IMG/VR virus record: IMGVR_UViG_3300006810_000506
Location: 1 to 21,075 of that record
DNA length: 21,075 nt
Source: a virus
Direction: 5' to 3' (one strand)
The notes under the pieces were generated by a model. That model saw only the letters and a program-made list of their open reading frames with translations, did not search any database and had not been told where the DNA came from. Each line of letters opens with the position of its first letter. The stretch's first letter is position 1. Of this stretch, positions 4,371 to 15,566 are shown in pieces. A program made the position numbers and the translations under genes.

Positions 4371-4483
4371 ACTCCTTGAGCTTGAAGTTGTAGTTGGCAC
4401 ATTTGCTCCTTTGCTCTCAAGGATAAGCCCCCTATCCCTTCACTCTCCTGTGATTTGGATGTATTTGCAAGGGGGCTTTTTTA
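4371..4483 (+). ncRNA. Candidate phage small RNA 2, about 110 nt
   Basis: This second unit runs from promoter P2 to a T-run. CCTTGAG (4374-4380) pairs perfectly with CTCAAGG (4416-4422) across a 35-base loop that contains CTCCTTT at 4406-4412. That heptamer is complementary to an AAAGGAG Shine-Dalgarno site, for example the one before the gene starting at 6492. The 3' domain is a long terminator hairpin with nested stems ATCC/GGAT and TCAC/GTGA. No plausible gene lies inside. Its 3' end touches the stop codon of the convergent methyltransferase gene. Confidence rests on the promoter, two folds and terminator; a target is not established. Confidence 0.5.
4425..4482 (+). terminator. Terminator with a large structured loop
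   Basis: AAGCCCCCT (4425-4433) pairs with AGGGGGCTT (4470-4478), and the T-run spans 4477-4482. The 36-base loop contains its own stem TCAC 4440-4443 with GTGA 4450-4453. It is directional for the plus strand: the minus-strand side has no T-run. Confidence 0.75.
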
Positions 4484-5365
4484 TGCCTGATATTCCATGT
4501 AAGCCTTTATGATTTCCGCTGCGACTTGCGGGACAATGGCGTTACCTGCTCCCCTGAGTAAGCCCACTCGATTGGGTATCCCATAAGCCAAAGGGAAAAG
4601 CGCGGGTTCAGTTGGGATTTCTCTCCATTTGCCATCTCGGCATTGAATGGCACTTGATCCTTGATGTTGCTGCATCCAGCTTTTTGCTTTGCTCTTGCTA
4701 GAGCCTCGTCCGATCTCGGAGCCATCGAGTCCATCGCATTCGGTGTTCCCCAGGGAACCATTACTGGAGCAAAGTTGGCTAACTGTCCCATGTGCGCTCT
4801 CTCTCCGTTCTCCATCTTCTTGATGGTATTTGGAATGCTGTTGGCTCCCTTGTAATCCCTTGCTGCTGGCGTTGGCCACGAAGAAAAGTCGTTCCCTTTT
4901 GTGCGGGGCACCGACGCTGCAAGCTGGCAATACTGCCATTGCTGTGGCGTAACCTTCTGCTTCCATGTCAGCTTGTAGATCATCGAACCACTCTGTTCTA
5001 ATTGCTGAGGCAACTTGCTCGCCAAATACTGTTGGAGGCGAACACTCTCTGATGAGATTGAAGAAGTGAGGCCAGAGGTGTCGCTCATCTTCTTGGGCTT
5101 TTCCACTTCCGGCAACTGAGAAAGGCTGACAGGGTGGTGATCCTGTCCAAACAGGTCGAGCTGATTCCCATCCTGCGAGTTGGAGAGCATAGCTCCAACC
5201 TCCGATTCCAGCGAAGAAATGACATTGCGTAAACCCTTCAAGGTCTGAAGGATCGACATCAATGATTGATCGTTCATCGACTTCCCCTTGTGGTATTAAC
5301 CCATCAGCAATGAGCTGGCGTAACCAGCTCGCTGCAAATGGATCGAACTCGTTATAATAGTTCAT
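4481..5365 (-). CDS. DNA (cytosine-5) methyltransferase, 294 aa
   Basis: This protein transfers a methyl group from SAM to C5 of cytosine in DNA. Visible motifs: motif I FFAGIGG (50-56, SAM binding), motif IV GSPPCQPFS with catalytic Cys79, motif VI as FGEQV (Glu-Gln-Val instead of the usual ENV), and motif VIII as APHKRERLFFVA (near 155-165). A Gly/Ser/Lys-rich target-recognition region covers about 170-250, and motif X is GNAIVPQVA near the end. It starts at the stop of the SSB-like gene (TAATG). No restriction enzyme is adjacent, so it probably protects phage DNA or regulates. Most of the gene is also open in another frame that looks genuine. Confidence 0.93.
   Translation of the reverse strand: MNYYNEFDPFAASWLRQLIADGLIPQGEVDERSIIDVDPSDLEGFTQCHFFAGIGGWSYALQLAGWESARPVWTGSPPCQPFSVAGSGKAQEDERHLWPHFFNLIRECSPPTVFGEQVASAIRTEWFDDLQADMEAEGYATAMAVLPACSVGAPHKRERLFFVANASSKGLQGSQQHSKYHQEDGERRESAHGTVSQLCSSNGSLGNTECDGLDGSEIGRGSSKSKAKSWMQQHQGSSAIQCRDGKWREIPTEPALFPLAYGIPNRVGLLRGAGNAIVPQVAAEIIKAYMEYQA
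4507..5277 (-). CDS. Overlapping-frame protein inside the methyltransferase gene, 256 aa
   Basis: This frame lies wholly inside the C5-methyltransferase gene, shifted +1, and stays open for 256 codons. ATG 5277 has SD AAGGGG six bases upstream. Its product has recognisable blocks: LDLFGQ (about 41-46), IYKLTWKQKVTP, SWPTPAARDYKG and NPRFSLWLMGYPIEWAYSGE near the C-terminus. I remember very similar proteins, usually hypothetical, encoded in the alternative frame of phage and prophage methyltransferase genes, so it appears conserved as a protein. Function unknown; a methyltransferase partner or specificity factor is conceivable. The alternative is a shadow frame kept open by constraint on the enzyme, but the blocks and the SD argue against that. 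Confidence 0.6.
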   Translation of the reverse strand: MNDQSLMSILQTLKGLRNVISSLESEVGAMLSNSQDGNQLDLFGQDHHPVSLSQLPEVEKPKKMSDTSGLTSSISSESVRLQQYLASKLPQQLEQSGSMIYKLTWKQKVTPQQWQYCQLAASVPRTKGNDFSSWPTPAARDYKGANSIPNTIKKMENGERAHMGQLANFAPVMVPWGTPNAMDSMAPRSDEALARAKQKAGCSNIKDQVPFNAEMANGEKSQLNPRFSLWLMGYPIEWAYSGEQVTPLSRKSQRKS

Positions 5366-13606: not shown

Positions 13607-14038
13607 ATGGCTAACAAAAAAGTGATACCAAGCTTAGATGGTTATGGTGGTTCCGCACCCAGGGTCAAACAGCTCAGTAAGAGCAGTACGATTAAGCAGA
13701 ATCGTGAGGCGATTGCGACTGAGATGTTGTGTATGGCGACTACCTCTGTGCGTGACATCATGGATTGGGACGAATACGGCAATGTTCGGCTGAAAGCGGC
13801 GAAGGATATTCCAGAATACGCGCATCGAGCGATTAAGAAGGTGACTTCTACGATCAGTCGAGATGGCGCATCCACCGTAACGGTTGAATTGCACGATAAG
13901 GTGCAGACTTTACGGACGTTGGCGAAAGCGGCAGGTCTGATGGAGCCAGAGCAGAACATGGATAAGCCGTCGGTTATCGGTTTTAACGTCAAAGCCCCAG
14001 TGCAAATAGATCAAGAGGCTGAGGTCGTCGATGAGTGA
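13607..14038 (+). CDS. terS: Terminase small subunit, 143 aa
   Basis: Start is taken at ATG 13607 (MANKKVIPS); GGTG, six bases earlier, is the only SD-like match. An ATG at 13595 and a TTG at 13544 are possible but less likely. The protein is directly followed by TerL with an eight-base overlap. A Lys/Arg-rich first part is followed by a helical middle (NREAIATEMLCMATTSVRDIMDWDEYGNVRLK) and the DIPEYAHRAIKKVTSTISRD...VELHDKVQTLRTLAKAAGLM region. That region resembles small terminase subunits that choose and bind the packaging site. Family by position and pattern, not by a unique motif. Confidence 0.75.
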   Translation: MANKKVIPSLDGYGGSAPRVKQLSKSSTIKQNREAIATEMLCMATTSVRDIMDWDEYGNVRLKAAKDIPEYAHRAIKKVTSTISRDGASTVTVELHDKVQTLRTLAKAAGLMEPEQNMDKPSVIGFNVKAPVQIDQEAEVVDE

Positions 14039-15566
14039 TGGGTTTCCAGGGGTCAATGTTGACCTGACGACTAGCCCTGTCGCCTATGATTTTCTACAGG
14101 ATGACTCGTTTGTAACGGGAATCATGGGGCCAGTAGGTTCGGGCAAGTCCTATGTGTCGTGTTTGCGGGTGATGCGAGTTGCTTTGCAGCAAAAGCCCTC
14201 GCCTCGTGACGGTATCCGGTATTCACGGTTCGTTATCGTGCGGAACAGCTACCCTGAGTTGAAGACCACTACGATTAAGACGTGGACGGATATTTTTCCG
14301 GAGTCGACTTTCGGGCCACTGCGCTGGACTCCCCCGATTACCCACCATATCAAGCTGCCGCCAAGGGGCGAAGCTGCCGGTGTAGACTGTGAAGTCATCT
14401 TTATGGCATTAGACCAGCCAAAAGATGTCAGAAAACTGTTATCACTTGAATTAACGGGAGCGTGGGTCAATGAGGCTCGCGAATTACCCAAGGCGGTCAT
14501 TGACGGTTTGACTCACCGTGTAGGCCGTTACCCTGCAAAGCGCGATGGTGGCGCTAGTTGGCACGGTATTTGGATGGATACCAACCCGATGGACGATGAT
14601 CATTGGTGGTTCCGCCTAGCCGAGAAGGAACCTGTCACGGGCAAGTATGCGTGGAAATTTTATTCACAGCCTGGCGGGATTAAAGAGGTTTCACATGAAA
14701 CATTGCCTGAAGACCCTGAAGCGAATGATCACGTTTTCGCGGCAGGTAAGTGGTGGAAGCTCAACCCTAAAGGGGAAAATCACAAGAATCTGCCACCAGG
14801 CTACTACCTGCAACAGCTAGCGGGTAAGAATCTGGATTGGATTCGATGCTACGCTGAGGGGCGGTACACCTACGTTCAGGAGGGCAAACCCGTCTGGCCT
14901 GAATACGATGACATGTTGATGTCGTCTGATGAGATAACACCCGATCCGAACCTACCAATTCAGGTTGGACTCGACTTCGGTTTGACACCAGCCGCCGTGT
15001 TTGGGCAGCGTCACCCGTCGGGGCAGTGGCGGGTTTTCCACGAAATCGTCACATTTGATATGGGTCTTGAGCGATTCGGTAATGAATTGCTTGCCGAGCT
15101 ACAAACCAAGTTTCCGAACTATGAAGTGTTGGTTTGGGGCGACCCCGCCGGTCAGCAGCGTGATGCCATTTATGAAACGACAGCTTTTGAGTATCTGCGG
15201 ACACTCGGTCTTAGGGCGCAGCCTACCGCCACGAACGACTTTAAGGCTCGTCGCGAGGCATCCGCTGCTCCTATGAATCGCATGGTGATGGGTAAACCTG
15301 GCTTACTTATCCACAAGTCATGCAAATTAGTCCGTAAATCCCTTAGCGGTGGCTACCATTTCAAGCGAATTGCAGTGGGCGCAGGGCAAGAACGATTCAA
15401 AGACTCGCCAAACAAGAACGAACACTCACACGTCGGTGACGCATTCGGGTATTTACTCGTTGGCGGTGGCGAATACCGTAATATGACCCGTAAAGGCTCG
15501 ATGGCACAGAACAGAACGTTTGTCGCACAGACGCTAACCTCTGCTGATTTTGACGTATTTGCGTGA
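14031..15566 (+). CDS. terL: Terminase large subunit, 511 aa
   Basis: This is the packaging motor. The ATPase part has Walker A GPVGSGKS (33-40), an Arg-rich adenine-binding segment (RYSRFVIVRNSYPELKTTT) and Walker B LTGAWVNEA (about 141-149). The nuclease part begins near residue 305 with VGLDFGLTPAAV (first acidic residue), then VLVWGDPAGQQ and HSHVGDAFGYLL near the end, giving the RNase-H-like acidic triad. The 511-residue length is normal. SD GAGG is six bases upstream; the start overlaps the TerS end. Its base composition is clearly more GC-rich than the following genes (two hand-counted 60-base lines give 52 and 57% against 32 and 35% after it). This suggests separate ancestry. Confidence 0.95.
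   Translation: MSDGFPGVNVDLTTSPVAYDFLQDDSFVTGIMGPVGSGKSYVSCLRVMRVALQQKPSPRDGIRYSRFVIVRNSYPELKTTTIKTWTDIFPESTFGPLRWTPPITHHIKLPPRGEAAGVDCEVIFMALDQPKDVRKLLSLELTGAWVNEARELPKAVIDGLTHRVGRYPAKRDGGASWHGIWMDTNPMDDDHWWFRLAEKEPVTGKYAWKFYSQPGGIKEVSHETLPEDPEANDHVFAAGKWWKLNPKGENHKNLPPGYYLQQLAGKNLDWIRCYAEGRYTYVQEGKPVWPEYDDMLMSSDEITPDPNLPIQVGLDFGLTPAAVFGQRHPSGQWRVFHEIVTFDMGLERFGNELLAELQTKFPNYEVLVWGDPAGQQRDAIYETTAFEYLRTLGLRAQPTATNDFKARREASAAPMNRMVMGKPGLLIHKSCKLVRKSLSGGYHFKRIAVGAGQERFKDSPNKNEHSHVGDAFGYLLVGGGEYRNMTRKGSMAQNRTFVAQTLTSADFDVFA

Follow-up and report, generated by a model that had tools for sequence, protein, structure and literature searches.

A phage cytosine-C5 methyltransferase gene with a gene nested in its +1 frame, probably for a second subunit of the same enzyme

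Genes and motifs at the locus

The window analysed here is the whole 21,075-nucleotide stretch of IMG/VR virus record IMGVR_UViG_3300006810_000506. Its minus strand carries a C5-methyltransferase (C5-MTase) gene, here called alpha, and a frame of 256 codons (beta) lies inside it, as a sequence-only reading of this DNA had noted. The offset between the two starts is 88 nt, which places beta in the +1 frame relative to alpha. The features are listed below with the evidence for each.

4481-5365, minus strand: alpha, C5-methyltransferase, 294 aa (PF00145, E 9e-23; phrog_363, E 7e-83)
4507-5277, minus strand: beta, nested +1 ORF of 256 aa with ATG start, probable second subunit (phrog_1008, E 3e-33; synonymous constraint; codon-phase reversal)
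5275-5289, minus strand: beta start region, AAGGGG at 5284-5289, six bases, ATG at 5275-5277 (sequence; start region conserved in relatives)
5117-5137, minus strand: alpha motif IV, catalytic PPCQPFS (sequence; PF00145)
4906-5052, minus strand: beta residues 76-124, a constrained segment of helix and hairpin that overlaps alpha motifs VI-VIII (fourfold divergence 0.10 vs 0.41; local pLDDT about 80-90)
4883-4912, minus strand: alpha motif VIII, GAPHKRERLF (sequence; the canonical MTase alignment stops just beyond)
4753-4878, minus strand: beta module 1 (WPTPAARDYKG...), candidate cassette for target recognition (module recurrence and reshuffling)
4615-4752, minus strand: beta module 2 (WGTPNAMDSMAPRSDEALARAKQKAGC...), candidate cassette for target recognition (found again in L004, L062 and others)
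4564-4614, minus strand: beta motif IX, QLNPRFSLWLMGYPIEW (canonical motif IX PSSM; fused homologue; alpha fourfold divergence 0.062)
4508-4546, minus strand: alpha motif X, GNAIVPQVAAEII (sequence; conserved in relatives)

Alpha has C5-MTase motifs I-VIII and X and no motif IX; its alignment to canonical C5-MTases breaks off just past motif VIII, and motif X is the sole motif that follows. With regard to PF00145, motifs I, IV (PCQ), VI, VIII and X are present, motif VI reading GEQV and not ENV, while motif IX is lacking from this polypeptide and present in beta. Alpha by itself is an incomplete member of the C5 DNA methyltransferase family (PF00145). Beta, in addition to phrog_1008, also matches phrog_31772 in the profile search. 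The sequence blocks in beta that had been taken as typical of a recurring group nested in phage methyltransferases do belong to such a group, namely phrog_1008 and its relatives.

The neighbours of the gene pair encode an SSB-like protein and a Sak-like annealing protein. The terminase encoded at 14031-15566 shares 73.5% identity with its counterpart in Methylophilales phage MEP301, which suggests that the window derives from an aquatic podovirus-like phage of the MEP301 group. Two overlapping plus-strand ORFs of 112 and 162 aa were also seen in different frames at 1651-1989 and 1658-2146.

Open frames and selection in relatives

Beta relatives were found by tblastn in 198 phage records, a viral scan with alpha as query gave 62 loci, and a beta alignment scanned against bacterial genomes yielded 80 loci spanning Proteobacteria, Verrucomicrobia, Planctomycetes, Acidobacteria and others (222 relatives in all). 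Beta ORFs lie within alpha at offset 1 in 193 of 199 matches among relatives; the remaining six involve frameshifts. Overprinted pairs of this size had been expected to be uncommon in DNA phages, and this expectation did not hold: among 80 viral loci selected solely by the motif NPxWVEWxMG, 72 are nested, seven have a shortened or interrupted alpha frame and one lies at a contig end. No free-standing beta without alpha was found among the 199 matches or these 80 loci. The dual-coding arrangement is widespread in phages and prophages. A plasmid search returned 13 records, and of the two inspected, one was a phage-plasmid and the other a prophage-like region; neither had an annotated restriction gene next to the MTase. 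One small contig carries three pairs of MTase and nested protein in tandem (L049:635-3286). A Geminisphaera genome locus (L166, reverse strand) encodes a more divergent C5-MTase with motif VI ENV and an overlapping beta-like ORF of 498 codons with about six WPTP modules, and the arrangement therefore extends past the phrog_363 clade.

A frame of this length is indeed rarely open by chance. Synonymous-codon shuffling of alpha gave an expectation of 4.6 stops in the beta region, which was wholly open in 0.1% of the shuffles, and the longest +1 frame observed (262 codons) was equalled in 0.17%. In 44 viral loci picked by alpha alone, the mean number of stops was 1.1 in the +1 frame versus 12.5 in the +2 frame, and nearly all of the +1 stops belong to region edges, an intein, an N-terminal extension or one short degenerate copy. 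These 44 loci were used in place of a count of zero stops over 116 genes, which was set aside because the regions there are defined by the open frame. From beta residue 46 to motif IX, one +1 stop was observed where codon permutation predicts 26, and the +2 frame was not depleted. Only stop counts were used from this permutation, as it moved silent changes between regions, so that its result for beta similarity rose in the +2 control too. Stops in close relatives, named beforehand as the finding that should speak against a second gene, were looked for as well, and the overlap is open in the closest ones, L004, L006 and L008.

The two frames can be told apart by their rates of change, since the third codon position of alpha is the second of beta and the first of alpha is the third of beta. 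Before beta and at beta residues 1-45 the rates follow the pattern of alpha only, with third-position values of 0.39 and 0.36. Motif IX shows the opposite order (first 0.15, third 0.10, second 0.075), and at motif X the pattern is again of alpha type. Divergence at alpha fourfold sites, measured over 19 disjoint pairs, was 0.41 ahead of beta, then 0.39 in beta 1-45, 0.22 in beta 46-80 and 0.10 in beta 81-121 (p 3e-17). It was 0.165 in the modules (conditional on identity at the first two bases), 0.062 in motif IX (p 1e-20) and 0.25 in motif X. Parts of the overlap thus show 4-7 times less fourfold change than the stretch that precedes it; synonymous change, which had been proposed as a test of the overlap, is far from free there (0.062-0.10 vs 0.41). 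In the modules and motif IX, beta is the better conserved of the two proteins, and changes silent in beta outnumber those silent in alpha. Close relatives of the window itself follow the general trend, on small counts. Taken together, these patterns indicate that alpha rules motifs I-V, VIII and X, that beta rules the modules and motif IX, and that both frames matter at motifs VI-VII.

The beta ATG is preceded by a plausible Shine-Dalgarno (SD) sequence, AAGGGG, six bases upstream (AAGGGG-AAGTCG-ATG), in agreement with the sequence-only reading. Other genes in this family share the codon-30 ATG used in the window, and a second start type lies in the alpha segment VDxRSIxDV, in which arginine is encoded by AGG in 30% of cases versus 9% elsewhere. 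AGG-AG in this segment is always paired with an ATG at codon 36 (33/33, p 1.5e-8; p 8e-5 when only genes with Asp36 are considered). The start of beta is not uniform, since both ATGs are absent from 20 of 114 genes. Alpha fourfold divergence reveals no constraint over beta residues 1-45, and some relatives may therefore start beta elsewhere, a point that counts against the pair being a split enzyme; the beta leader may be dispensable. In L031 the beta frame opens at about residue 64. In L057 (1617-3801) an intein-like insert sits in alpha exactly between the PC and the Q of the catalytic site; it breaks the beta frame, which is filled with stops inside the insert and resumes after it, and this beta lacks the usual first ~55 residues.

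Openness in relatives, synonymous constraint and a start signal within alpha codons all uphold the proposal that two proteins are made from this one stretch. That the open frame is a by-product of alpha codon usage or composition would fit the unconstrained appearance of beta residues 1-45 and the mere 3-4 stops per gene expected from alpha-only shuffles at high G+C. This explanation was rejected as extremely improbable, because it is contradicted by the strong synonymous constraint at fourfold sites, the reversed codon-phase rates at motif IX and the SD/ATG coupling, and it is further opposed by openness across divergent relatives and by an in-frame fusion homologue, described below.

Motif IX, modules and single-chain homologues in the nested frame

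The motif IX of the window beta is LNPRFSLWLMGYPIEW, preceded by cassette-like WPTPxxxD modules. A PSSM was built from canonical motif IX (e.g. RLTVRMAARIQGFPDNW), and its best window was LNPxxSRWLMGxPxxW in 226 of 260 beta proteins; on alpha the same PSSM found no window comparable to that of beta. Profile-profile comparison of beta with canonical MTases gave a weak match (E 0.27), a weakness that counts against the pairing, yet it falls at the same place, motif IX.

Each beta carries one to seven units opening with W-P-T-P or similar, two of them in the window, and these modules occupy the position of the target-recognition region in C5-MTases. Local DNA matches in the variable region keep register in 2069 of 2074 cases, with some of these regions including part of the conserved core. 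Between loci, 925 module pairs share at least 60% identity; 530 of these stand at different array positions and 481 occur in proteins whose cores are less than 45% identical. Module families present in at least three loci number 37, a few of them core parts caught by the pattern. This reshuffling between distant genes is cassette exchange, as expected of recognition domains, and by their position and shuffling the WPTP modules probably recognise DNA.

Comparison of the beta sequence and profile with the PDB returned nothing relevant, and the N-terminal half of beta had no known match in profile and sequence searches. Two AF2 runs of beta alone gave low-confidence models, which we count against the split-enzyme interpretation, and a PDB fold search with the second model found no match; a structural argument was therefore not used.

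The clearest evidence for what beta appears to be comes from gp45 of Propionibacterium phage PFR1. This single polypeptide carries motifs I-VIII, the module LLPTPTARDVKD, RLSARFVEWMMGLPDGLVT and motif X, all in frame, so that module and motif IX sit between motifs VIII and X. It matches PF00145 along its length (20-312 of 324) and phrog_1008 at residues 185-342 (E 8e-43), as well as a beta-core HMM (E about 3e-9). Intermediate forms also exist: the alpha frames of ByChance, McKinley and L213 stop after motif VIII, and modules, motif IX and motif X are encoded in the other frame.

Other beta frames run into further coding sequence. In L055 (3089-4564) no stop separates the beta ORF from an MT-A70-like adenine methyltransferase in the same frame, alpha having stopped earlier; this is a possible fusion of beta with the adenine MTase. 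An HNH-like endonuclease domain follows motif IX in the beta frame of L054 (3005-4501), where alpha reads through and retains motif X, and in L024 (3056-4468) the beta ORF runs ~440 bases beyond the alpha stop into downstream coding sequence with no intervening stop.

The intermediate forms could also be read as a sign of ribosomes shifting from alpha into +1 near motif VIII, with no separate beta start, since a shift would there restore the canonical motif order in a fused enzyme with modules and motif IX. We rejected this as very unlikely, given that beta is already constrained upstream of motif VIII (residues 81-121), that SD and ATG are conserved within alpha, and that motif X of the window lies in the frame of alpha, so that a shift product would lack it. 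Beta might instead be a real protein with a separate job (e.g. toxin, inhibitor of host restriction, or regulator) that merely shares the MTase DNA; sharing DNA does not oblige two frames to share a function, and the unmatched N-terminal half of beta leaves room for one. This too was rejected, as an unlikely explanation, by the presence of motif IX in beta and its absence from alpha, by the beta part fused in frame in PFR1, and by beta never being found without alpha in the 199 matches and 80 motif-selected loci. Rather than being unrelated to its host gene, the nested protein is most likely the missing part of the same methyltransferase, contributing motif IX and, putatively, target recognition.

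Proposed enzyme and comparison with known systems

We propose, with a probability of roughly 0.86, that the pair is one split cytosine-C5 methyltransferase in which beta gives specificity and motif IX, and which serves anti-restriction self-methylation. Frame 0 would yield alpha with SAM binding, the catalytic PCQ and motifs I-VIII and X, and the +1 frame would yield, from its own internal ATG, beta with a helix-hairpin, a short array of target-recognition cassettes and motif IX. The two would associate as the domains of an ordinary C5-MTase do, with alpha as the large one and beta as the small one, and this assembly would let beta set which sequences, possibly several, are methylated. Self-methylation would shield the phage genome from host restriction. 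The annotated neighbourhoods inspected showed no restriction gene, which makes such protection of phage DNA the likely role, by analogy with known phage orphan MTases. Somewhat more probable than its opposite is the wider proposal that phages and prophages across many phyla hold a C5-MTase specificity subunit as a shufflable cassette array in an overprinted frame, each swap rewriting two proteins, the recognition unit of beta and a tolerant linker of alpha.

Long same-strand overprinting is usually associated with very small viral genomes. In these ordinary dsDNA phages and prophages it is a stable arrangement, and its two products would belong to one enzyme. Some phage records annotate both ORFs without explanation (K1G ORF30/31, Jacopo gp56/57), and many of those examined annotate alpha alone or call beta hypothetical, so that the probable specificity half of these methyltransferases is overlooked. 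Prediction of specificity from alpha, or cloning of alpha only, would be expected to fail. With single-chain, partly overlapping and fully nested forms all present, the way in which an overprinted gene arises can be tested directly.

No description of the nested phage family, its nesting or its split was found in the literature searched. The alpha and beta families correspond to phrog_363 and phrog_1008 ('DNA methyltransferase'), and the 'Mte8-like' ORFs of K1 phages belong to the same sequence families; in both cases annotation is by name alone. In M.EcoHK31I, too, the small subunit comes from an alternative reading frame within the gene for the large one. M.EcoHK31I (YGGCCR) is a natural two-polypeptide C5-MTase whose large subunit has motifs I-VIII and X and whose small subunit has motif IX (PMC3404938), and the window pair shows the same layout, compared by description, with motif IX in beta alone. 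M.EcoHK31I differs in belonging to a restriction-modification system, and its target-recognition domain is predicted in the large subunit (PMC3404938), whereas here beta carries the modules as well as motif IX, a difference that counts against our proposal. M.AquI (CYCGRG), likewise of two polypeptides, is split within the variable region (PMC3404938) and is similar to the forms of ByChance, McKinley and L213, whose motifs IX and X lie in the second frame. Motifs IX and X stand together on the small subunit in L297, L299 and L213; the window differs in keeping motif X on alpha and in having the second gene nested over its whole length. Multispecific C5-MTases of Bacillus phages (e.g. M.H2I) have tandem target-recognition domains (PMC8936443), similar to the tandem, exchangeable modules of putative recognition function here, but in a single polypeptide and not as a putative array in an overprinted frame. 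The principle of a split enzyme is therefore already known from M.EcoHK31I, and tandem recognition domains from Bacillus phage MTases; new are the breadth of the arrangement, the shufflable array in an overprinted frame, the conserved internal start and the graded forms.
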